Below, one piece after another: positions 2,103 through 22,048 of a DNA stretch of 22,048 nt. Source of the stretch: a virus; IMG/VR virus record IMGVR_UViG_3300001419_000064, positions 1-22,048 of that record. One strand, written 5' to 3'. A model generated the notes under the pieces. It did no database searches. It had not been told where the DNA came from and was given only the letters and a program-made list of their open reading frames with translations. A program made the translations under genes and the position numbers. Numbering within the stretch: position 1 is the first letter of the stretch; each line of letters opens with the position of its first letter.

Positions 2103-2259
2103 GGAAGGTATCGGCGGGGTAGTAGCGGCTGAGGATTCCAGAGTCTCGGAGGCGGGCATTGGCTTGCAGGATCTCAGTGGTGGAGGCACAGGTGCGGTAA
2201 AGCACGGTGCCCGTGGTTGGATTGCAGAGTTCGTAAAAAGCAAGGTCAGGAGAAGGCAT
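2074..2259 (-). CDS. Small hypothetical protein, 61 aa
   Basis: The protein begins MPSPDLAFYELCNPTTGTVL. It has a beta-hairpin-like start (FYELCNPTTGTVLYRT), then a helix (TTEILQANARLRDSG). This pattern of a short strand pair and helix is common in phage accessory proteins, but I cannot name the family. Its ATG at 2259 has no clear ribosome binding site. It overlaps the next gene by 29 bp. Confidence 0.6.
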   Translation of the reverse strand: MPSPDLAFYELCNPTTGTVLYRTCASTTEILQANARLRDSGILSRYYPADTFHAPLLHNPG

Positions 2260-2300
2260 GCGAAAGTAACGGCAGGGCCGTGAGCGAGCAGAAGGAGGTG

Positions 2301-2336
2301 GGCCGGGGAGCGCTCAGCGCTGCGGTGAGTCCGGCC
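2301..2336 (-). other. GC-rich hairpin between genes
   Basis: Arms GGCCGG (2301-2306) and CCGGCC (2331-2336) are perfect complements, and the loop contains a doubled AGCGCT. It lies in the 94-bp gap between the stop of the 135-aa gene and the start of the 61-aa gene. No T-tract follows on the minus strand, so it is more likely an RNA processing or stability hairpin than a classical terminator. Confidence 0.4.
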
Positions 2337-2353
2337 TATTCAGTCTGGCAGGG

Positions 2354-2761
2354 TCATGAGGAGGTGGTGTAGCGGACGTGATAGGTGTTTTCACCGTCGT
2401 CGAGCTCGGTCAGGTCGGGGGCGGCGTCGTACAGGTTGAGGCAAGAGTCGATGAACTGGTTGACCCGGGCGTAGTCGAGGGCGGCGTGGATCCAGTGGGG
2501 GTTGATCTCATCATGAGACTCAATGAGACGCTCCATCTGTAGGCAGGCGGTGCGGTTGAAGCAGCCCCAGAGTTGTGTGATCAGGCCGATGGTCTGCATG
2601 AAGGTCTGATCGCTGAGCTGACCTTTGGTGAGCTCGGTGTGGATGATCTGGACGATCTTGCGCTGGGCTGGCGGCAGGCTGTCGAAGTTGGGGAAGATCT
2701 CGCGGACGGTGTCGTCGCTGAGTGACTCGAAGAGCCGCTCAGGGGTGTCGGGGATTTGCAT
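2354..2761 (-). CDS. Hypothetical protein, 135 aa
   Basis: The protein begins MQIPDTPERLFESLSDDTVR and is acidic and mostly helical. It carries a segment with W and C in the middle (LITQLWGCFNRTACLQMERL) and a C-terminal strand (ENTYHVRYTTSS). The ATG at 2761 is chosen over a TTG seven codons upstream. It follows DUF932 after a strong hairpin at 2792-2808, so its expression may be partly uncoupled from DUF932. No family is recognised. Confidence 0.7.
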   Translation of the reverse strand: MQIPDTPERLFESLSDDTVREIFPNFDSLPPAQRKIVQIIHTELTKGQLSDQTFMQTIGLITQLWGCFNRTACLQMERLIESHDEINPHWIHAALDYARVNQFIDSCLNLYDAAPDLTELDDGENTYHVRYTTSS

Positions 2762-2791
2762 GGTGGGGGCACTTTGATGCAAGGGTAGGAA

Positions 2792-2808
2792 GGCCGGCAG
2801 GGCCGGCC
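2792..2808 (-). terminator. Perfect 7-bp GC hairpin after the DUF932 gene, possible attenuator
   Basis: GGCCGGC, a 3-base loop AGG and GCCGGCC form a perfect stem 15 bases after the DUF932 stop. On the minus strand it is followed by TTCCTACCC, a poor U-tract. I see this as an attenuator or 3'-end-stabilising hairpin rather than a full terminator. Confidence 0.45.
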
Positions 2809-2822
2809 ACTGGAGGGGTGGT

Positions 2823-3968
2823 TCATACCAGCGCCAGACAGGCCTCGCGGGCGCGCTCGATGCGCTTGGCGGAGGTGCCGCCCCAGAGGGACTCGAGGCG
2901 AGCGCGGGCGCGCTCGGTTTCGTTCTTGGCGCGGCCGGAGTCGTGAGTCTCGAACTGGGTGATGGCGTTGTAGAGGGCGTAGGTGGTGCCTTTGATGCCG
3001 GGGATGTTGGTGATGCCGAGGCCGGTGTTTCCGGAGTAGTGGCTGCGGATGGTGCCGATCTCGGGGAGGTCGGCGAGGGTGCGGGGGCGCTTGTCGCCGG
3101 TCTTCTTGTCGCGGATGGGGGTGGCGAGCTTGTCGGCGTAGGTGGCTTCGAGGACGCGGCGGGCGATCTCGGGGGTGAGGGTGACGTTGGTGATGGAGCG
3201 CAGCTCGTCGATGGAGGCGGCGAAGGTCTGGCGCTCGATGTCGATCAGCTGTGGGAGCTGGTGGGCGAACTCGGTGACGCTGCCGGTGTGGCGGCGGCGG
3301 AGGCCGGTGCCGTTGGTGATGGCGTTGCGGGTGGCGCGGCCGGTGAGGAAGTTGAGCTGGTTGGCGCAGGCGAGGCGGATGTCGCTGAAGAAGACGCCGA
3401 AGCCGCTGCTGCCGTCGTGGGAGTTGAAGATGTGCAGGTAGCGGCGGACGCGATCACCGGGGACGACTTCGCTCTCGGTGTTGATGGAGGCGGTGGCGTA
3501 GACGCGGCGGCCGTTGCGGATGGAGAGGACGGTTTCGAGGTTGATGTCCTCGCGGAGGTAGTCGAGGAGGTTGATCAGGGCGCTGTTTTGCACCGGGGTG
3601 TAGGCGGTGCCGTGGATGCCGAGGAGGGCATCGTTGTCGCTGCGGACGATGGAGCAGTGGTCGGGGGATTCGATGGGGCCGTCGGGGCCCATGTAGAAGA
3701 CGGCGCGGCGCTCGGCGGTCCAATCGAGGCCGGCGATGGTGAAGGCCTCGGAGGCGGAGGCGTTCTCGGGGACGAAGGTGCCGAGCTGGGCGGTGAGGGG
3801 ATTTACGGTGTAGCCGTGCTCGCGGTACTTGCCGTAGACGGCGGGGCCGTAGCCGTCGGCGGCGTAGGCGGAGGAGACGGTGCTGGGGCTGAAGTCACGC
3901 ATGGTGGTGAAGTGGGTGGTGGTGTTGCCGGATTGGGTGCGGCTCCGGCCGGCCGCGTTGGTGGTCAT
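2823..3968 (-). CDS. DUF932 / phage-plasmid-like protein (TIGR03299 type)
   Basis: The 381-residue protein matches the DUF932 layout. A variable N-terminus is followed by a core with GLDWTAERRAVFY, IVRSDNDALLGIHGTAYTPVQN (near residues 107-128), a strand-rich middle with FSDIRLACANQLNF, and a long helical C-terminus ending in W.G.SAKR. The family occurs in phages and plasmids and has no established biochemical function; a role around DNA metabolism or host takeover is only a guess. ATG at 3968 follows a weak AGAAG ribosome binding site. The gene is strongly G/C-biased at third positions, which produces a false 365-codon Gly/Ala/Val-rich frame on the opposite strand. Confidence 0.85.
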   Translation of the reverse strand: MTTNAAGRSRTQSGNTTTHFTTMRDFSPSTVSSAYAADGYGPAVYGKYREHGYTVNPLTAQLGTFVPENASASEAFTIAGLDWTAERRAVFYMGPDGPIESPDHCSIVRSDNDALLGIHGTAYTPVQNSALINLLDYLREDINLETVLSIRNGRRVYATASINTESEVVPGDRVRRYLHIFNSHDGSSGFGVFFSDIRLACANQLNFLTGRATRNAITNGTGLRRRHTGSVTEFAHQLPQLIDIERQTFAASIDELRSITNVTLTPEIARRVLEATYADKLATPIRDKKTGDKRPRTLADLPEIGTIRSHYSGNTGLGITNIPGIKGTTYALYNAITQFETHDSGRAKNETERARARLESLWGGTSAKRIERAREACLALV

Positions 3969-13662: not shown

Positions 13663-16410
13663 ATGGACAAACAAAAGAAAAGCAATGGTTCGGATCTTCT
13701 CAAGGGCCGGGCTATTGAATTGCTGCGGCGTGATGTTTTTCCTGATGGGTGGTCATTTGTGCCAGTAGCTGGCAAAGCCACCTATGTGAAGGAATGGAGC
13801 ACAAAACCGCTGACTCGGGTTGAGTGCATGACGGCGTACCAGCTCAGGCAGGACTATGTGGGCCTGGGAGTGGTGACGGGGTCGTTCTCGGGGGGGCTGA
13901 TCGCTCTCGATATTGATGGGGAGGACGCTGATTCGCGCTACAGGGAAGCGGCCGGAAAGGAGTACGAGCCGTACGGCGAAGAGAAAACGATGTCGTGGAC
14001 ATCAGGTAAGCCGGGGCGGCGACAGATCCTGTATCAGGTGCCTAAAAATCTGGTTCCTGAGCTGAAGGATCTCAAAACGCTGATTCTGCGTACAGACGAT
14101 GGCGAGTGGCATGCGGGGCATGGAGATACCAACCGGGGAGCTGGTGGTGTGCTCGACCCCGAGAGTGGTGAAGCCTACGAAGAGGTTGTCCTGCGCTTCA
14201 ACGCCTGTCAGAGCGTGGTGCCTGGGTCGCCACATCCGGAGACCAAGAAGCCTTACAGCTTTCTGAACTACAACGACGGCAAGGTGGCGACGGCGCCGCA
14301 GTGGGTGCTGGATGTGCTGCGCCCGTACAGGAAGCCGACGCAGTGGCTGTCCGAGGCTGAGCAGAAGCAGCTAATGGAAGACATCGGCGGACATACGGCG
14401 GTGCCGTCCAGGCAGATCCGCGGATGGTTCTTCAAAGAGGAAGTGCAGGCGTTGCTTCAGCCTCGGCTGGAGGATTTGATCTTTCAGCATCCGGTGTTCG
14501 ACGAGTACGGATGGAAGCGTCGGGGAGGGGATAAGCCGCAGCGCATGAGTGGGTGCCCGTGGCATGGAGGGCGCAGCGGAACCACGTTTCAGTACGCGGA
14601 GGAAACTGGCTGCTGGGACTGCAAAGCATGTGGGGTCGGGGGAGACGTTCTCGACTTTGTGCACAAGATCCGCACGAAGGACATGCACGCGGAGCGGCCT
14701 ACGGGGCCTGATCTTGAGGCGTATGTGGCGGAGATTGCGGCCGAGCTCGGATACGACTATCCGGCGTGCGCGACGGCGACGGAGGTCACCGTTAAAGATG
14801 CGCCTCTGAAGAGGTTGTCGGGGCAGGAATTCTTCACCACCGCGGAGAAGATCATCAATGGGTACGACAACGCGGAACTGGCGCACTACCAGCTGATGGA
14901 GTTGGTGCGTGACTCGGGGCTGACGCACGTCTACAAATCAGGTCCGCAGGTGGAGTCGGCGCTGGAGCGGTTCTTGCTGCACCAAGAGCAAGTGGAAGAA
15001 GATCCCAAGTGGCAGGAAAAGGTGCGCGGGCAGCGGGACTATCTGATTCCGGATTTTGTGTCAGCACCGAGCTCGATACTGCTGCATGCTCGGGGTGGCA
15101 TGGGCAAGACCAGGCTTGCGGTGCTGCTGGCGAAGATTGTGGGCCAGAAGCTGCCGATGAAGGTGCGGGGCCTGAAGGTGGAGCCGACGGTTTCGGGGAA
15201 CGTGCTGTTCATTGGCAACGACATGTCGATGACGGACTACGCGGAGTACCTGGATCAGCAGGGGATTGACTCAACGGGGGCGGACTCGTGGTTTCGGTTC
15301 AAACCGCAGTGGCAGCAGAGTCAGTACAGGGTGCTGCTTAGGTGGCTGCAAGAGATCAAGCCTGTGCTGGTGGTGGTCGACTCGTTGACGTCGGTGAGCA
15401 CGATGATCGCGGCCAAGGAGTATGAGAAGGAGTACTCGAACACGCTGTACCGGTTGGCGCGGGAGAACGGAACGGCGTTTCCGGCTACGACGTTTCTGTG
15501 GATTCACCACAACACGAAGGACGGGACGAAGTTTCGCGGGACCGACACGCTGCGGAATGCGGTGCACGAGACTTGGGAGCTGAAAGATCTCAGCGATGAG
15601 GAGCGAGCTCAATACGGCGACCACGCGCTCATCCTCGAGATCGACAAGAGTCGCGGCATGCGGGGTGGTGATCGATTTTTGGTGCAAGAAGACATTGAAG
15701 AGGCGCTGAGTATTGAGGATCTGACGCCGACGGTGACCCGGGAGAACGGAGGGAATGGGGACGAGACGCCACGGACGATCGTTCTCGGGATCCTCAAAGA
15801 GGCGGAGGCTCCAATGACGGCTAAGGAGCTGCGTTACGCGCTTAACGCGCGGCTGGCGGGGCGCAGGGGGCCGGGGACGATCGTGAGTGAGAAGACGGTG
15901 AAGCGGTGGGTGCAGAGGTGGGTTGTTGCCGGCCTCGTGGAGGAGTCGAAGGTGAGACAGGCGGGAACGAAAGGTGGGAGGCCTTGCATGGGTTTTTCTG
16001 TCAAGCGTTCTATATACGAGTCACGGAGTGTCCAAAACCTTCCTTCTTTCTTTGAAACTCCTTCTAGTGGAAGGGATTTGAGTTTTGGACACGAGGATGG
16101 GAAAAATGTCCAAAACCCCGAAGTGTCCGAAACCTCCGAGGGTGAAGTGGTACAGCAGGGCACAGTCTCAAATGAGACGTATGCGACAAAGCAGCCTGTG
16201 GAAAAACTGGGGAAAAACCCCCCTGAAGAGGGCCCTGAGGTTTTGGACATTTCGGACACAGAAGAGGGGTTGTCCAAAACCTCCGAGGCTGAAACCCTTT
16301 CCAGCACAGGCGTTTCGGAAAATCGTTCCGAGGTTTTGGACATTTCCTCGGAGGTATATGGGAAGCCCGTTTCTACGCAGGACTATGGAGACTGGGAGGA
16401 GGACTGGTAA
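13663..16410 (+). CDS. Bifunctional primase-polymerase / RepA-like helicase
   Basis: The 915-residue product joins four parts. Residues about 1-230 are a Prim-Pol domain with GLGVVTGSFSGGLIALDIDG (catalytic DxD near 82-84) and VVPGSPHPETKKPY near 186-199. Residues about 295-335 are a DnaG-type zinc finger (CPWH; CWDCKACGVGGDVLDFVHKI). Residues about 470-720 are a RecA/RepA-like ATPase with Walker A ARGGMGKTRLA (about 476-486), Walker B VLVVVDSLT (about 567-575) and a later FLWIHHNTKDGTKFRGTDTL motif. A winged-helix-like part (APMTAKELRYALNARLAGRR) precedes a Ser/Glu-rich disordered tail. It should prime and unwind DNA at the phage origin. ATG 13663 is chosen over an upstream GTG. The tail's codons carry many inverted TGTCCAAAAC repeats, described separately. 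Confidence 0.92.
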   Translation: MDKQKKSNGSDLLKGRAIELLRRDVFPDGWSFVPVAGKATYVKEWSTKPLTRVECMTAYQLRQDYVGLGVVTGSFSGGLIALDIDGEDADSRYREAAGKEYEPYGEEKTMSWTSGKPGRRQILYQVPKNLVPELKDLKTLILRTDDGEWHAGHGDTNRGAGGVLDPESGEAYEEVVLRFNACQSVVPGSPHPETKKPYSFLNYNDGKVATAPQWVLDVLRPYRKPTQWLSEAEQKQLMEDIGGHTAVPSRQIRGWFFKEEVQALLQPRLEDLIFQHPVFDEYGWKRRGGDKPQRMSGCPWHGGRSGTTFQYAEETGCWDCKACGVGGDVLDFVHKIRTKDMHAERPTGPDLEAYVAEIAAELGYDYPACATATEVTVKDAPLKRLSGQEFFTTAEKIINGYDNAELAHYQLMELVRDSGLTHVYKSGPQVESALERFLLHQEQVEEDPKWQEKVRGQRDYLIPDFVSAPSSILLHARGGMGKTRLAVLLAKIVGQKLPMKVRGLKVEPTVSGNVLFIGNDMSMTDYAEYLDQQGIDSTGADSWFRFKPQWQQSQYRVLLRWLQEIKPVLVVVDSLTSVSTMIAAKEYEKEYSNTLYRLARENGTAFPATTFLWIHHNTKDGTKFRGTDTLRNAVHETWELKDLSDEERAQYGDHALILEIDKSRGMRGGDRFLVQEDIEEALSIEDLTPTVTRENGGNGDETPRTIVLGILKEAEAPMTAKELRYALNARLAGRRGPGTIVSEKTVKRWVQRWVVAGLVEESKVRQAGTKGGRPCMGFSVKRSIYESRSVQNLPSFFETPSSGRDLSFGHEDGKNVQNPEVSETSEGEVVQQGTVSNETYATKQPVEKLGKNPPEEGPEVLDISDTEEGLSKTSEAETLSSTGVSENRSEVLDISSEVYGKPVSTQDYGDWEEDW
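16029..16342. repeat. Eight TGTCCAAAAC-type boxes in both orientations inside the Prim-Pol gene
   Basis: Plus-strand boxes start at 16029, 16107, 16124 (TGTCCGAAACC) and 16271; minus-strand boxes lie at 16082-16091, 16237-16249, 16250-16258 (short) and 16328-16342. The fullest form is TGTCCAAAACCTCCGAG (16271-16287). Because the boxes appear on both strands and in different reading frames (SVQN, LSKTS, EVLDIS, SFGH), they cannot be explained by a repeated peptide. Inverted pairs could form stem-loops. They may be binding sites for the replicase, that is, an origin inside its own gene. Confidence 0.75.
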
Positions 16411-16499
16411 TGCGACTCAATCTCAGCGCCAGGAGGGCTCTTCACCGAGCTCGGCCTGGCCGCTGGGCGGTGCCGTCGGAAGCAGCAATGTCGCTATGA
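16410..16499 (+). CDS. Possible 29-aa basic peptide downstream of Prim-Pol
   Basis: ATG at 16410-16412 shares its first base with the Prim-Pol stop (TAATG) and has an excellent GGAGGA ribosome binding site 9 bases upstream. The peptide is Arg-rich (MRLNLSARRALHRARPGRWA). The frame overlaps the 3' end of the minus-strand gene at 16423-16656; both could be used. No family is recognised. Confidence 0.35.
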   Translation: MRLNLSARRALHRARPGRWAVPSEAAMSL

Positions 16500-16656
16500 A
16501 GCTGCGAGCTTGAAAGTGAGACTTGACGAGAGTCTTTGCTAAAGCTTTTAGCTCTGCTATATTGCTACAGTCATCGATCTGCCTTAGCGCTGACTCAACA
16601 GCAAAGCTACGAGTAAGATCATCCACACCAAAGTCGCAGTTAACCAAGTATGCCAT
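16423..16656 (-). CDS. Minus-strand hypothetical protein, 77 aa, between two plus-strand replication genes
   Basis: From ATG 16656 the product reads MAYLVNCDFGVDDLTRSFAV and has a clear helix pair (AVESALRQIDDCSNIAELKAL; AKTLVKSHFQARSFIATLLL) followed by a loose tail. The amino acid pattern and codon choice are those of a real gene, and it precisely fills the 240-bp gap between Prim-Pol and the polymerase. It lies antisense to its neighbours and its DNA is less GC-rich. Cyanobacteria and cyanophages have many small two-helix proteins of this kind; NblA was considered but key features are missing. Longer starts (to 16686) run into the polymerase gene. Confidence 0.65.
   Translation of the reverse strand: MAYLVNCDFGVDDLTRSFAVESALRQIDDCSNIAELKALAKTLVKSHFQARSFIATLLLPTAPPSGQAELGEEPSWR
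16536..16563 (+). promoter_or_regulatory. Candidate sigma-70 promoter for the DNA polymerase
   Basis: TTGCTA (16536-16541), 16 bp, then TATATT (16558-16563) gives a good -10 (5 of 6) and moderate -35 (4 of 6). The spacer contains an inverted repeat GCTAAA-GCT-TTTAGC (16539-16553), a possible operator. Start would be near 16570, 80 bases before the polymerase ATG. It lies within the minus-strand 77-aa gene, so the two transcription units would interfere. Confidence 0.5.
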
Positions 16657-18599
16657 CGACTGAGACACTTGCCCACATACAAGCATTAGAAAATGTTGAT
16701 TTCGATTTCATACGTGGCCCGCAGGCGGCTTCGCTGCTGAAGCGACGCGTTACCGAGCTCGGTGAGGCTGAAGGCCCGTTGGGGGTAGACACAGAGACGA
16801 CAGGGTTAGATCCGCTGGCGAATCGCGTGCGTCTCATTCAAGTCGCAAGCTGCGACTACGCACTCGTGGTCGATGTGGAAGGATGGCGTACCGAGGGCGA
16901 AAGGCAGTTGCCCTGGGATGCGCCAGGGCTGCAGGAGCTAAAGGCGCTGCTCGAAGGTCCGCAAAAGAAGGTGCTGCAGAACGCTGCGTTCGACTTGAAC
17001 TTCCTCGCCGGCGAGGGTGTCGAGCTCGGGGGATCGGTTTTTGACACGATGATCGCCGCCAAGGTGGTCAATAACGGCACGGGGGCGAAGAATGACCTCG
17101 GAAGCCTCGTGAACCGAGTGCTGAAGGTGCCGCTGCCGAAGGAGCTGCAGAAAGCGGACTGGGGTGGCGAAATCTCGGATGAGATGGTGCGCTACGCGGC
17201 GCGGGACGCGGTGTGCCTACCTCGCATGGTGCCGGCGCTGGTGGCGGCGCTGAAAGAGGCTGAAGTGTCGCCCTCGGTGACGCTGTGGGACGTTTTCAAG
17301 CTGGAGATGAAGGCGTTGCGGCCGATTGCGCGCATGCAGTGGAATGGGTTTGGGTTTGATGCGGTGGCTGCCGCGGCTTTGCAGGTCTCATTGCAAGACC
17401 ATACTGAGACTCTTAAGACGCACTTTCTTGAGACCCTGGATGTCGCGCTCAAGGCGGAGCATCCGGATGAACCGAGCGTGTGGCTGCCTCGCGATGAGGA
17501 TGGCACGCTGAACACACGCGAAAAAGACTCGGGGTCGATTCGCAAGGGTACGAAGCGTTACAAGGGTTTCAACCCGCGCTCGCCAAAGCAGATGGCTGAG
17601 CGATTTGAGCAGGCAGGGATTCTGTTGCCACCGGACCAGAAGGGAGCTCCGAGCCTGGATCAGAACCTATTGGCATTCCTGAAGGGGGAGTACGAGCTCG
17701 TGGCGATGTACCTCGAGTGGAAGACGGCTGTGACTCGTGTGTCTCACATTGAGAAACTGCTGGATTCGATTGGGCCAGATGGGCGGATTCATGCGGGGTA
17801 TAGGCAGATGGGAACGGAGACTGGGCGCCTGAGTTGTTCTTCGCCGAACCTACAGCAAGTACCTCGTGAGGGGGAGTTTCGGCGTTTGTTCCGAGCTCGG
17901 AGTGGGTACAGGCTTGTCGTGGCGGACTTCAGTCAGGTGGAGCTGCGGGTGGCAGCGGAGCTTTCCGGGGAGGAGCGTATGCGGGCGGCGTACAAAGCGG
18001 GGAGAGATCTGCACACAGAGACTGCAGCGTTGGTTACGGGTAAAAGTGCAGATAGCATTACGAAGAAAGAACGTACTTCGGCCAAGTTGTGTAATTTTGG
18101 GTTATTGTATGGAGCTGGTGCTGCTACTTTAAGAAAACAAGCTGTTGCACAGTATGGCGTAGATATGGAGCTAGAAGAAGCGCAGGAATTAGTGACTGGA
18201 TTTAGAGAAGCGTACCCACAACTGTATGAATGGCAGATGCAGGAAGGTAACAAAACAACTAAGGGTGTGTTCACACGATATGGTCGACGTAGGATGTTGA
18301 CAGGTTTCAATGACAAGTACACGACACGAATCAATACACAGGTGCAGGGGACTGCAGGGGACATTGCCAAGATCGCCCTCGCGATGATCTGGGACCGGAT
18401 TCAGCAGGCAACGCCTGGTGAGGCGCTGTTGATTGCCATGGTGCACGATGAGATCGTTCTCGAGGTCGTGCAGGATCGTGTGGAGCAATGGTCGGAGCTG
18501 TTAGCAGGTGCTATGGAGGCTGCTGGTTCGGTTATTTGTAAGGCGGTTCCTATTGTGGCCGAAGCTTCGTCTGGTGACACTTGGGCAGATGCCAAGTAG
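16650..18599 (+). CDS. Family A DNA polymerase (PolA-like) with 3'-5' exonuclease
   Basis: The 649-residue enzyme has a 3'-5' proofreading domain (Exo I DTETTGLDP with D47 and E49; Exo II NAAFDLNFL, D115; Exo III YAARD, Y182 and D186) and a polymerase domain with motif A ADFSQVELR (D426), motif B RTSAKLCNFGLLYG (K479, F483) and motif C MVHDEIVLEV (H599, D600). The residue equal to E. coli 762 is Phe (F483), the wild-type state seen in many lytic phages. There is no 5'-3' nuclease domain, as usual for phage enzymes. The replicative role with the upstream Prim-Pol helicase is clear. DNA of about 18050-18345, over motif B, is visibly AT-richer than the rest of the gene. ATG 16650 has no strong ribosome binding site. 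Confidence 0.96.
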   Translation: MPSTETLAHIQALENVDFDFIRGPQAASLLKRRVTELGEAEGPLGVDTETTGLDPLANRVRLIQVASCDYALVVDVEGWRTEGERQLPWDAPGLQELKALLEGPQKKVLQNAAFDLNFLAGEGVELGGSVFDTMIAAKVVNNGTGAKNDLGSLVNRVLKVPLPKELQKADWGGEISDEMVRYAARDAVCLPRMVPALVAALKEAEVSPSVTLWDVFKLEMKALRPIARMQWNGFGFDAVAAAALQVSLQDHTETLKTHFLETLDVALKAEHPDEPSVWLPRDEDGTLNTREKDSGSIRKGTKRYKGFNPRSPKQMAERFEQAGILLPPDQKGAPSLDQNLLAFLKGEYELVAMYLEWKTAVTRVSHIEKLLDSIGPDGRIHAGYRQMGTETGRLSCSSPNLQQVPREGEFRRLFRARSGYRLVVADFSQVELRVAAELSGEERMRAAYKAGRDLHTETAALVTGKSADSITKKERTSAKLCNFGLLYGAGAATLRKQAVAQYGVDMELEEAQELVTGFREAYPQLYEWQMQEGNKTTKGVFTRYGRRRMLTGFNDKYTTRINTQVQGTAGDIAKIALAMIWDRIQQATPGEALLIAMVHDEIVLEVVQDRVEQWSELLAGAMEAAGSVICKAVPIVAEASSGDTWADAK

Positions 18600-18640
18600 T
18601 ACGACTTGTGGTAGGATATTTATGTAGCGTTTTTCTAGCA

Positions 18641-19036
18641 ATGTTGACAGGACAAGAACTGCTTTCGTTTGTGAAGGCCAATGTGGACATGGATCAAGCT
18701 GAAATTGCGCGCGGGGCTGGCTATGTGCGCGTGACGGAAAAGGGCACAGAACGTTTGTTGATCAATAAGCTCAATGAAGCGTTGCTGGAAGCTAAAGGGC
18801 TCAAGCTTAAAAGCAGCAAGAAGCCTGGCAAGTCGGCGCAGTATTTGACTACAGTGCACCGTACTGGTGTGATTCTGGTGGGAAAGACGTACTCGCAGAA
18901 GTTTGGGGTGGAGCCTGGTGACGAGCTGAAAATCGTCATTGAAGAGGATTCGATCCGGTTGGTTCCGCAGCCCGCGAGTCGGAAGCCTAAGACTGAAGCA
19001 GTGAACGAAGCCTGTAGTATTCCGTCTGCTGCTTGA
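18641..19036 (+). CDS. Cyanobacterial-type AbrB-like transcription regulator
   Basis: From ATG 18641 (MLTGQELLSFVKANVDMDQA) the product has 131 residues. The N-terminal LTG..LL..VK segment, the middle EIARGAGYVRVTEKGTERLL and LNEALLEAKGLKL, and the C-terminal swapped-hairpin part (GVILVGKTYSQKFGVEPGDE then LKIVIEEDSIRLVP) match the cyAbrB family of cyanobacteria, regulators of nitrogen, carbon and stress genes. The phage copy could mimic or displace the host regulator, or act on phage genes. The longer upstream frame overlaps the polymerase end and is not needed. This is strong evidence of a cyanobacterial host. Confidence 0.85.
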   Translation: MLTGQELLSFVKANVDMDQAEIARGAGYVRVTEKGTERLLINKLNEALLEAKGLKLKSSKKPGKSAQYLTTVHRTGVILVGKTYSQKFGVEPGDELKIVIEEDSIRLVPQPASRKPKTEAVNEACSIPSAA

Positions 19037-19260
19037 TGGGTGATAACGAGCTGCGATCTCGGTTGTTGGCTCAACTGACAAAGATTGCAGAACGTTTGCC
19101 GAATGGGCTCCTTCATCGGTTGGTGAAGGATGCCCAGTTTTTTCATGACTGGAATATGAAGAAAAAGAAAGCTAGAGCGTCTGCACGGTTAGCTCAGTAT
19201 GAAGCGTGGAAGCTTAAAGCGGAGGATAAATACTGGCGTGGGGTTCGGCGTAACGGCTAG
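19036..19260 (+). CDS. Small basic protein, 74 aa
   Basis: ATG 19036 shares its first base with the AbrB stop (TGATG), so the two are coupled. The product (MGDNELRSRLLAQLTKIAER) is helical and very basic in its second half (NMKKKKARASARLAQYEAWK; YWRGVRRN), suggesting nucleic acid binding. The piece LPNGLLHRLVKDAQFFHDWN could be a helix-turn. It may be a partner of the AbrB-like protein. No family is recognised. Confidence 0.7.
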   Translation: MGDNELRSRLLAQLTKIAERLPNGLLHRLVKDAQFFHDWNMKKKKARASARLAQYEAWKLKAEDKYWRGVRRNG

Positions 19261-19283
19261 GATGGAGTGAATACATTGACATT

Positions 19284-20396
19284 ATGGCTGCTCGTAAGTC
19301 TTACTCGAACACTTGGAAGGGGGTGGAGCAAGCAGCCAAACGCGCAGGTGCGAAATATCCCGAGCTCGTGGCGGCGCAATGGGCGCTAGAGAGTTCCTGG
19401 GGAAAGCACACCTCGGGGAGGCATAATTACTTCGGTTTGAAGGGGCAGGGCTCGGATTGCGTAACCACCGAAGTGATCAACGGCGAGACGATTACGATCA
19501 CAGATGGGTTTCTGGATTTCTCGGACCTCGGGGAGTGTGTGCAGTATTTAGTGGACCGATGGTACAAAGACTTTGAGAGCTGGAAAGGTGTCAACCATGC
19601 GGTCAGCCGGGATGCGGCGGCGCGTGAGCTCAAAGCGCAGGGGTACGCGACCGATCCGGCGTACGCGGAGAAGTTAATTAGGCTCATGGATGAGCATGCG
19701 GGCTCGGGTAGCGGAACAGAGGCTCAAAGCTCGTACACACGTATACAAGCCGTGCGAGATACCTGGCTGAAAAAGAAGCCGGTGCAGTCTTCCGAGCTCG
19801 GGGAGGATGAGCGGGTGGCTGTGTCTGCAGGTAAGTCCTACAGCGTGTTGAAGTGGGATGAGCTGCCGGCACAGGCGCATGCGCAAGTCGAACTTGGTTA
19901 TGGGGCGGGTACTTGGTACATTTATGAACCTCATTGGGTGCAAGAGGGTGCGCCGCAGGCGAAGCCAGAGGTGGACTGGGAAGACTTCAGTTGTTTGGTG
20001 ACACCCAATCTCGCGGTTGGTGAGGTGCTTCAGTACGACAAGCGGAGGACTCCGGCGCAGGGGGCGTCAGTGCGAGCTCGGTTGCTGCGGACTGCGGCGG
20101 AGTTTCAGAAGGTGCGCGATGCTTGGGGTCGGCCGCTGGGGGTGACGAGCTTTTACAGGCCGGAGCCGATCAATCAGCAGGTTGGTGGGGTGCCGGGCTC
20201 GAGACATGTGGTTGGGGAGGCGTTTGATGTCTATCCCGTGGACCGCAGTCTGGAGAGCTTTTACCAGTGGATCCGAGTGCGGTGGACTGGTGGACTAGGA
20301 GATGGACGCTACCGCGGTTTCATCCACTTGGACGTTAGTGGCGGAGGCTTCGTTCCCGGTGCGGGTGTCCGACCTTCTCGCGAATGGACGTATTAG
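19284..20396 (+). CDS. Two-domain endolysin: glucosaminidase plus M15 peptidase
   Basis: The 370-residue protein begins with a glycoside hydrolase 73-type N-acetylglucosaminidase domain (about 1-145): WALESSWGKHTSGRHNYFGL with the catalytic Glu at E36. A linker with a short SH3-like or repeat part (SVLKWDELPAQAHAQVELGY then WYIYEPHW) follows. The C-terminal M15 zinc peptidase (about 230-370) shows SFYRPEPINQ, SRHVVGEAFDVYP (H308, D315) and FIHLD (H348), the three zinc ligands expected. It should cut both glycan and peptide bonds of the cell wall for release. There is no signal peptide, so a holin is expected. The last 20 codons are duplicated beyond the HNH gene. Confidence 0.93.
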   Translation: MAARKSYSNTWKGVEQAAKRAGAKYPELVAAQWALESSWGKHTSGRHNYFGLKGQGSDCVTTEVINGETITITDGFLDFSDLGECVQYLVDRWYKDFESWKGVNHAVSRDAAARELKAQGYATDPAYAEKLIRLMDEHAGSGSGTEAQSSYTRIQAVRDTWLKKKPVQSSELGEDERVAVSAGKSYSVLKWDELPAQAHAQVELGYGAGTWYIYEPHWVQEGAPQAKPEVDWEDFSCLVTPNLAVGEVLQYDKRRTPAQGASVRARLLRTAAEFQKVRDAWGRPLGVTSFYRPEPINQQVGGVPGSRHVVGEAFDVYPVDRSLESFYQWIRVRWTGGLGDGRYRGFIHLDVSGGGFVPGAGVRPSREWTY

Positions 20397-20403
20397 ATTG
20401 GGT

Positions 20404-20433
20404 GAGTCGGCGGTGCTGGTAACACCCCGACTC
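20404..20433 (+). other. Strong hairpin before the HNH gene
   Basis: GAGTCGG (20404-20410) and CCGACTC (20427-20433) with inner GGTG/CACC form an 11-bp stem with one bulge. No T-tract follows, so it is not a standard terminator. It sits 25 bases before the HNH ATG. T4 homing endonuclease genes are known to be held back by hairpins near their starts, and this could do the same or mark the end of the lysin message. Confidence 0.5.
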
Positions 20434-20458
20434 GTGACCAACCTGAAGGTACAGGCTG

Positions 20459-21007
20459 ATGGATCAGAGCTTAGAGCAGTGGCGCCCAGTTGCAGGCTAT
20501 GAGGGCCTGTATGAGGTCAGTGATGCGGGCAGGGTGAGGAGCGTTGATGGGGAGAGATGGAATGGTCAAATAACACACAAGTTCACAGGGCGCATTCTGA
20601 AGCAAGCTACTAGTGCTTACAAGCAGGTGACGTTATCCAAAAACAAGAAACTAAAGACTTATAGGGTGCATCAGTTAGTCGCAGATGCATTCTTGCCACC
20701 CTGTCCCGGCCTGCGGGGTAGACGAGCTGGTTGCTATCAAGTGGATCATATAAACAATAACAGGTTCGACAATAGAGCCTGCAACCTGCAGTGGCTCACG
20801 GTAAGAGATAATACTTACACCAAAAATCCAAATGCGCTAGCCAAGCGTCTAGGCTCTAATCATCCCAATGCGGTGCTTAATGAGCAACAGGTTGCGGAAT
20901 TAAAAAATTCAACAGAAGGAGCAGGTGTTCTGGCGCAGCGCTATAAAGTTAGTAAAGGCACCATACAGGATATTAGAAGTGGCAGGATTTGGAAGCATGT
21001 CGCTTGA
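20459..21007 (+). CDS. HNH homing endonuclease with NUMOD4
   Basis: The 182-residue protein has a NUMOD4 segment at residues 5-30 (EQWRPVAGYEGLYEVSDAGR), an HNH core (VHQLVADAFLP then VDHINNNRFDNRACNLQWLT, about 70-115) and a C-terminal helix-turn-helix (LNEQQVAELKNSTEGAGVLA; YKVSKGTIQDIRSGRIWKHV), the usual layout of phage homing endonucleases. It should nick or cut a specific site in related phages and spread itself by repair. Its DNA is AT-richer than neighbours, a sign of recent entry. It lies directly after the endolysin and in front of a leftover copy of the lysin's 3' end, so the lysin gene is the probable target. Confidence 0.93.
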   Translation: MDQSLEQWRPVAGYEGLYEVSDAGRVRSVDGERWNGQITHKFTGRILKQATSAYKQVTLSKNKKLKTYRVHQLVADAFLPPCPGLRGRRAGCYQVDHINNNRFDNRACNLQWLTVRDNTYTKNPNALAKRLGSNHPNAVLNEQQVAELKNSTEGAGVLAQRYKVSKGTIQDIRSGRIWKHVA

Positions 21008-21074
21008 TACGCGCGGAGGTGGGGGCTTTGTGCCCGGAGCTGGTGCGCGGCCGGCGGCGGAGTGGACTTATTGA
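21003..21074 (+). pseudogene. Displaced original 3' end of the endolysin gene
   Basis: Starting at CTT 21003 a frame reads LDTRGGGGFVPGAGARPAAE then WTY and stop. The active endolysin ends LDVSGGGFVPGAGVRPSREW then TY and stop. About 14 of 18 aligned residues agree, yet 11 of the shared codons use a different third base. It has no start codon and begins exactly where the HNH gene ends. I read it as the former end of the lysin gene, cut off when the homing element, carrying its own version, was inserted. Confidence 0.85.
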
Positions 21075-21110
21075 ACCGTATTCGAGTAGCTTTCAGGATA
21101 CAAATGTTAA

Positions 21111-21239
21111 TTACAGCTGTAAATTAATAAAATCACCTGATTGAGTTGTAAGGTTGTCTCCATCCTGAGTAATTAAAAGAATAAGGACTACAGCTTGCGC
21201 TGTACTTATAGAACGCAATCTAGTAGCTAAAAGTTTCAT
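21111..21239 (-). CDS. Small protein, 42 aa, tail-gene neighbour
   Basis: ATG 21239 shares a base with the stop of the 143-aa gene (TGATG). The product begins MKLLATRLRSISTAQAVVLI and continues with LITQDGDNL and a strand-like SGDFINLQL. It may be a short beta protein with one hydrophobic stretch (AVVLILLI) that could be membrane-associated. It converges on the lysin/HNH transcript. No family is recognised; short LL..DG..L..EsGD... proteins occur beside phage virion genes. Confidence 0.55.
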   Translation of the reverse strand: MKLLATRLRSISTAQAVVLILLITQDGDNLTTQSGDFINLQL

Positions 21240-21670
21240 CAAAGTAGCTCTGTCACTTCGAGCACGCCATCGGTGCTGGCATTGCGGATGACAGCGATAT
21301 TAGGTGTTTCAGGTAGCGCTAAGTCAAGCCGCTCGCCGCTGCTGATAAAGTGTGTTGTTAAAGCGGCAGTCTGCGATGTGCTGCCAATGGCATAGCGAAT
21401 ATCTGCGCCTACAGCTTTGATGCTGATGCGACGGCAAGTGGTCGTTAGGGCTGTGTTCGCGCTCGTGGAGCCAGCGGCGAGTTGACGAGCGACTCCGGGA
21501 ATACCTAAAGGTTCTGTTGGGACCGGGTTGCCTGCATCGTTTTTGATTTCTACGCCATCAGCGGTGACGCTGAGAGTTGCGTTGCCGATGTCTACAGGGA
21601 GCGGTTGGTTGGGGTCCGCACGGACGTATACTTCAGCGTAGCGGTCGTCGTTTACGATTTTCTGTGCCAT
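21239..21670 (-). CDS. Putative virion-associated protein, 143 aa
   Basis: The protein begins MAQKIVNDDRYAEVYVRADP and is beta-rich with many Thr, Ser, Ala and Gly. It has TLSVTADGVEIKNDAGNPVP, then RRISIKAVGADIRYAIGSTS and SGERLDLALPETPNIAVI, ending in a strand (GVLEVTELL). This pattern is common in phage tail, baseplate or head-decoration proteins, though I cannot name the family. It lies on the minus strand with the putative frameshift pair upstream. Confidence 0.6.
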   Translation of the reverse strand: MAQKIVNDDRYAEVYVRADPNQPLPVDIGNATLSVTADGVEIKNDAGNPVPTEPLGIPGVARQLAAGSTSANTALTTTCRRISIKAVGADIRYAIGSTSQTAALTTHFISSGERLDLALPETPNIAVIRNASTDGVLEVTELL

Positions 21671-21703
21671 AGCTATGCAGCAATGCCTCAGTGTAGGACC
21701 GTG

Positions 21704-21943
21704 TCAGTCAGTTGGATCGGTGTCGAGTTCATCGAACCAGGGAGCACGGATGTGTAGGTCGTCGAGCCGCACTGGTGGCTGGACCGTAGGCGGCTGACTG
21801 CGATGCCAGCTTTCGATCTCAGCATCCAGTCCGGGTTTCAAGGTCGCCTCGAATTTGCGGCGGTTGATCGCACGCTGCAGATCCTGCAACGGTGAGCGCG
21901 TGTCGAACCGCCACAGCCAACGACCGTCGGTAGGGATCAGCCC
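21704..21943 (-). CDS. Downstream half of a predicted -1 frameshift fusion
   Basis: The frame reads GLIPTDGRWLWRFDTRSPLQ and on to TDPTD (79 codons) and looks coding throughout, but it has no ATG or GTG. The only standard start is TTG 21889, which would drop the well-formed IPTDGRWLWRFDTRSP part. It is entered from the upstream gene by a -1 shift at A AAA AAG. A CTG overlapping the upstream stop (CTGA) is an alternative start. Its role is unknown; it could be the T-like half of a tail-chaperone pair, but no tape measure follows it. Confidence 0.6.
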   Translation of the reverse strand, partial: GLIPTDGRWLWRFDTRSPLQDLQRAINRRKFEATLKPGLDAEIESWHRSQPPTVQPPVRLDDLHIRAPWFDELDTDPTD

Positions 21944-22048
21944 TTTTTTGCTTTGAGGCTGCGGAGTGCGTGGAACACAATCTGGATCACGCTGTTGTCA
22001 CGCAGCGGCGACAGAGCGATGATTTCAGATGCGGCAGCGATCACGATC
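21937..22048 (-). CDS. Upstream half of the frameshift pair, C-terminal part only
   Basis: The frame enters from the right edge and reads VIAAASEIIALSPLRDNSVI then QIVFHALRSLKAKKG and stop (TGA 21939-21937). The hydrophobic-helix then basic tail pattern resembles the ends of small membrane or holin-like phage proteins; a tail assembly chaperone is the other option. A slippery heptamer lies two codons before the stop. The start is outside the window. Confidence 0.65.
   Translation of the reverse strand, partial: IVIAAASEIIALSPLRDNSVIQIVFHALRSLKAKKG
21943..21949 (-). promoter_or_regulatory. Candidate -1 ribosomal frameshift site A AAA AAG
   Basis: The heptamer AAAAAAG is in the correct register (GCA AAA AAG GGC TGA) and lies one codon before the stop. 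Slipping back one base continues into the open -1 frame at 21704-21943. Twelve bases downstream a small hairpin CCGAC-GGTC-GTTGG could stimulate it, though the spacing is longer than ideal. Confidence 0.55.

Follow-up and report, generated by a model that had tools for sequence, protein, structure and literature searches.

The window analysed here (22,048 bases) is an entire virus record, a metagenomic contig in which Pfam and PHROG profile matches identify genes for a DNA polymerase A, a primase, a sigma factor, and an AbrB-like protein. The AbrB-like protein and the matches of the lysin to Synechococcus-phage lysins suggest that the virus is probably a cyanophage. Here, we report an endolysin gene with two 3' ends, one in frame with the gene and one stranded behind a free-standing HNH gene of the homing-endonuclease type (Table 1). 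The last 20 codons of the lysin are repeated at 21009-21071, in frame behind CTT GAT (21003-21008), and this copy adjoins the HNH ORF directly: the HNH TGA (21005-21007) falls inside the first codons of the copy, i.e., the stop codon of the HNH gene is provided by the displaced lysin end. The repeat had been noticed in an initial annotation of the DNA and is confirmed by a BLOSUM62 score of 91, whereas 200 shuffles of 20397-22048 scored 42 at most; by tblastx, the two flanks matched each other at 2.6e-9.

Compared codon by codon, with one codon deleted, the two lysin ends share five identical codons, differ synonymously at 10 (all at the third base) and non-synonymously at five; the imported end is the one that is a codon shorter. 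The annotation had counted third-base differences in 11 of 18 codons; the differences are indeed mostly synonymous, but the count is now 10 of 20 (11 of 21 if the Asp codon is included). Likewise, its term "recoded" suits the 10 synonymous codons, but not the five amino-acid changes and the codon deletion, which are as expected if the end derives from another lysin lineage. The Pfam M15 match, and with it the catalytic domain as matched, stops at residue 350 and so takes in only the few residues of the exchanged end that precede this point. Judged from its sequence, the hybrid lysin is full length and its catalytic domain is essentially untouched.

Table 1. Features of the endolysin–HNH locus in the window.
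Feature	Position	Strand	Basis or details
Endolysin ORF	19284-20396	+	370 aa; Glucosaminidase + Peptidase_M15_3
Resident part of endolysin (glucosaminidase + M15 peptidase)	19284-20320	+	93% identical to and colinear with L001; PF01832, PF08291
Imported, diverged endolysin 3' end with TAG stop, fused in frame	20321-20396	+	38/57 nt identical to native end, 37/57 to L001
Structured 5' leader of HNH gene, overlapping lysin stop codon	20392-20458	+	Leader model R1, 52 bits, E 3e-14 (R1 was trained on 41 sequences, the window among them)
Leader stem P2, GAGTCGG/CCGACTC, with bulged C at 20411 and inner stem GGTG/CACC	20404-20433	+	Covariation
Conserved leader motif GTGACCAAC	20434-20442	+	Near-invariant in alignment A3
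Leader hairpin P3, CCTG/CAGG, 3 nt ahead of HNH start codon	20442-20455	+	Complementary arms vary
NUMOD4-HNH_3 homing-endonuclease-type gene	20459-21007	+	182 aa, intact; PF07463 1.3e-14, PF13392 8.8e-10
Displaced native endolysin 3' end with TGA	21003-21074	+	21011-21075 98.5% identical to L001 lysin end

Uninterrupted lysin ends in related viruses

IMG/VR gave 29 loci related to the lysin, and in all 27 of those in which the lysin end could be read it is uninterrupted. The closest of them, L001, is an insert-free sister phage whose lysin reads HLD-RRGGGGFVPGAGARPAAEWTY-stop. L001 is colinear with the window over 15284-20333 (93.3% identity), then over 21011-21075 (98.5%), and then from 21704 on, skipping about 675 bases (20334-21008). 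This break and resumption of colinearity identifies the downstream copy as the native end and 20334-21008 as added sequence. Over the last 19 codons of L001, 56 of 57 bases are identical to the downstream copy and 37 of 57 to the in-frame copy, the two ends of the window being identical to each other at 38 of 57. The alignment bears out two earlier proposals, i.e., that an insert-free relative would run straight into the 21003-21074 copy, and that a foreign lysin end was fused in frame while the native end was left stranded downstream. The exact insertion is held by one genome.

The imported end had been placed from 20331 on. That the end was replaced stands, but divergence from L001 sets in earlier: mismatches cluster from 20321, with four in the 13 nt of 20321-20333 (P = 0.013 against the rate in the gene body), so the foreign tract probably starts at about 20321, a few codons ahead of 20331. 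Please note that this start rests on those four mismatches. The diverged tract 20321-20396 would fit co-conversion of flanking sequence.

As to the source of the imported end, it is identical to other lysin ends at 34-43 of 57 positions and none stands out as closer. Its spacer from HLD to FVPG is one residue short. A spacer of this shorter, five-residue kind also occurs in a lysin clade (L274-L278) that carries no HNH gene; at the nucleotide level, this clade is identical to the imported end at 34-39 of 63 positions, no more than other lysins. Because no lysin, including those of the short-spacer clade, comes closer, the donor lineage appears to be unsampled; searches by HNH protein, by HNH alignment, and by degenerate lysin end returned no donor phage with the same order of lysin end and HNH gene.

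The HNH gene, its relatives, and a structured leader

The HNH protein matches phrog_59 (HNH) at 1.8e-40 and the structure of I-HmuI (PDB 1u3e) at 3.2e-9, across NUMOD4 and the HNH motif; the order of NUMOD4 and HNH_3 is the same in both proteins and the catalytic DH...N...N residues align, in agreement with the earlier description as a free-standing homing-type gene. Its nearest relatives in IMG/VR, L031 (69%) and L032 (41%), lie convergent with a different glucosaminidase–M15 lysin and overlap its 3' end by a few bases. This convergent placement recurs in 18 further loci among the matches listed and in 47 of 58 leader contigs, two sets that partly overlap; loci in which convergent HNH genes overlap the lysin stop include L038-L059 and L118-L174. 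By contrast, no HNH gene was detected at the lysin stop in 66 of 69 related lysin loci, which were fetched with another query. Six such HNH-free loci were inspected, and in five (L194, L202, L241, L243, and L271) the lysin stop is followed within a few bases by a putative dCTP-deaminase-like gene; in the sixth, L212, no such gene sits right behind the lysin. This presence and absence among related loci marks the lysin 3' end as a polymorphic site into which this HNH family has inserted repeatedly. No duplicated lysin end was found in the convergent loci, which sets the codirectional, end-replacing form of the window apart from them. At the same lysin stop, L210 and L211 (2583-3050) carry a different HNH-like gene, codirectional and leaderless.

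The HNH gene of the window is preceded by a leader whose fold is common to its relatives: a 7-bp stem, a bulged C, an inner stem of 3-4 bp, the motif GUGACCAMC, and a hairpin abutting the AUG. In 41 leaders, 90% of the cells pair and 101 cells are changed on both sides, against 34 in shuffles; nine of the 11 pairs of the P2 main stem show double changes with pairing retained, and many leaders of the largest subset have one C-A mismatch. The covariation score is 0.453, and slid controls reach at most 0.127. P3, which contains a Shine-Dalgarno-like AGG, has its 4 bp in 35 of 35 distinct leaders, against 2.3 in shuffles, and occurs with five complementary arm-pair types. A further outer stem of 3 bp (GGU/ACC) was left out of the model because its sequence hardly varies and its pairing is broken in some of the leaders.

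The leader stands ahead of HNH genes of five architectures in 62 of 64 distinct leader/ORF pairs, a set in which part of the leaders came from HNH searches and two pattern scans were protein-independent; of the other two, L146 has an HNH-like remnant and L193 is probably a chance match. No family of Rfam 15 matches the leader, none was found in named phages, and bacterial genomes gave only three matches, all actinobacterial, one of which was shown not to lie ahead of an HNH gene. The structured leader is probably new. By analogy with homing genes of T4 (PMC2988022), it probably regulates translation; within 20392-20458 there is also a possible -10 box. Decayed HNH remnants lie behind the leader in L154 (5420-5600) and L146 (1833-2100), as expected for homing genes after fixation, and a weak leader-like match (26 bits) precedes a KilA-N gene in L008 (1393-1459), with the GUGACC motif not in place.

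Replaced gene ends elsewhere

A scan of 208 distinct homing-type gene contexts, in which 700 bases were compared on each side, gave clear same-strand gene-end repeats in two, the window and L054; two further weak matches lay near the 1e-3 threshold and neither is a gene end. The 16 HNH loci of named phages showed no such repeat. In L054, a 257-kb virus contig, positions 2234-3652 hold a gene end, a tandem NUMOD4-HNH gene, and a second copy of the gene end. The repeated gene is unrelated to the lysin; it encodes 744 aa or more, including an NPPY motif, and ends in LFRDLFPQEWSELQTAFKALAEKLRPGVYEYGFLRR. Directly at the HNH stop sits LWRGLFPEEWAELQTAFKVLSEKLRPGVYEYGFLRK, which is a second copy of the last 37 codons of the gene, and by codon the copies are the same at 13, synonymous at 16, and changed at seven. 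This HNH gene is without a leader. Searches for relatives of this gene gave none in phages and only distant ones, at most 32% identical, in plasmids; since no close relative was found, the native end of L054 is not identifiable.

Homing that replaces a gene end is known from yeast and from fungal mitochondria, and the window would be a phage variant of it. WHO elements target FBA1 in Torulaspora and Lachancea yeasts (PMC7282813). As in the window, they replace the 3' end of the target and leave a target 3' fragment downstream of the endonuclease gene; under the WHO model, the next homing event uses this fragment as its second homology arm, and the acquired end is protected from cutting. Resistance was tested there, whereas for the window we infer it. 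The yeast elements are nuclear and their enzymes HO-related, unlike the NUMOD4-HNH protein of I-HmuI kin found here at a phage lysin. Fungal mitochondrial mobile ORFs with inserted C-termini are described in atp6 of Allomyces and in atp6, atp9, cox2, and nad3 of Glomus (PMC3630166), and the analogy to the atp6 elements drawn in the initial annotation holds, since the order of elements is the same: an in-frame foreign end, an endonuclease ORF, and a displaced native end. There, too, the differences are mostly synonymous and the displaced copy is nearer to insert-free relatives, as it is here to L001. In contrast, the Glomus elements encode LAGLIDADG or GIY-YIG enzymes in mitochondria and their hybrid transcripts or expression have been shown (PMC3630166), while the window element, with NUMOD4-HNH_3, is known as a sequence in a virus contig. 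Enzyme class and host differ from those of both families, so we place it in neither.

The intronless homing of the T4 seg and mob genes (PMC2988022) resembles the window in the free-standing endonuclease gene, its presence or absence between relatives, and perhaps flank co-conversion; the window likewise has an intact homing-type HNH gene and an empty site in L001. RNA hairpin leaders precede several T4 homing genes, compared with one covarying fold before unrelated HNH genes here, and the consulted part of the T4 source holds no description of a replaced coding end with a stranded copy. We found no report of a phage example of gene-end-replacing homing in a literature search of open PubMed Central texts.

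Homing and the competing explanations

We consider the locus an intronless homing element of the gene-end-replacing design, driven by the HNH enzyme, with a probability of about 0.78. The enzyme would cut or nick the native lysin 3' end near the HLD codons, and the break would be repaired from a co-infecting phage carrying, in this order, a lysin 3' end with its stop, the leader, and the HNH gene. The left exchange would lie within the conserved body of the lysin, shortly ahead of 20321, where the identity changes sharply, and the recipient's own lysin end was displaced downstream of the HNH gene. The imported end would probably be too different for recutting. The leftover end had been called debris; it is stranded, but by the WHO model (PMC7282813) it would, together with its flank, probably serve the next transfer as right homology arm, presumably through 21003-21074 itself. 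The last leader hairpin lies over the ribosome-entry region and would probably limit or time translation.

We favor homing because L001 offers an empty site, because the HNH gene is intact, I-HmuI-like, with NUMOD4, and has no intron around it, and because the native tail is far nearer to L001 (56/57) than the in-frame tail (37/57) while the fetched relatives are uninterrupted. It is favored further because the closest HNH relatives occur at other endolysin 3' ends, present or absent among related phages, and because the architecture is repeated in L054 and has precedents in WHO elements, with tested resistance, and in the mobile ORFs, with hybrid transcripts. Against it count the right arm, which spans only about 70 nt within the gene, the convergent relatives without duplicated ends, and the failure to find a donor.

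Accidental illegitimate recombination between two phages, with the HNH gene a passenger and not the driver, is the alternative that survives best, and we hold it to be unlikely. Phages are mosaic, the right junction is without clear homology, and the exact arrangement occurs in one contig; yet the insert contains nothing but a gene end and a single HNH gene, dozens of phages have HNH relatives at the 3' ends of lysins, and L054 is an independent second case around another HNH gene.

If the insertion were spliced, as a group I intron or otherwise, the true 3' exon would be the downstream copy, and the upstream end would arise by fortuitous read-through. HNH genes are often intron-borne and the insert lies within a coding gene; the I-HmuI gene itself sits in a group I intron, which the HNH gene of the window does not. 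Neither strand of 20000-21400 has an Rfam match at E<=5, upstream there is a complete lysin end, homologous and closed by a stop of its own, and there is no room for a core, with about 60 nt between lysin stop and HNH start and an HNH stop that overlaps the downstream copy. Splicing is therefore very improbable, and the earlier reading as intronless is upheld, since each of the two ends codes right through to a stop.

Tandem duplication of the lysin 3' end in the same phage, the in-frame copy diverging later, would likewise yield two copies flanking the HNH gene, but here it is the untranslated copy that is conserved (56/57 to L001), and the in-frame copy that has gathered 10 synonymous and five other changes and a deletion, the opposite of what neutral drift predicts; moreover, the gene is 93% identical up to its 3' end, where divergence sets in abruptly, and we give this origin hardly any credence. 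An assembly chimera of two phage genomes, conceivable for a metagenomic contig, is just as implausible: the hybrid lysin keeps its frame and full length, the HNH side of the right junction has no lysin homology to mislead an assembler, and a second contig (L054) has the same architecture.

Beyond the single locus, we incline slightly towards an undescribed class of selfish cassettes in phages, defined by a structured 5' leader RNA that accompanies unrelated HNH genes; some phage homing genes would also bring a replacement end for their target gene, so that WHO-like homing would be recurrent. A free-standing homing gene would be expected to keep out of essential genes, since an insertion inside one would break it, and a spare, cleavage-resistant gene end would be a solution without intron or intein. 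The phage lysin and the second HNH locus may indicate that this solution evolved repeatedly, with pieces of essential genes exchanged between phages. The shared leader offers a sequence handle for homing cassettes whose nucleases are mutually unrecognisable, and it is a candidate RNA regulator.

Two minor observations concern the comparison with L001 outside the lysin gene. A 628-bp segment of the window (21076-21703) is missing in L001; it contains an ORF on the minus strand (21239-21670) that neither Pfam nor PHROG matches. The end of the primase gene, at about 16104-16346, holds short repeats of GAGGTTTTGGACATTTC and related sequences, and L001 has them too.
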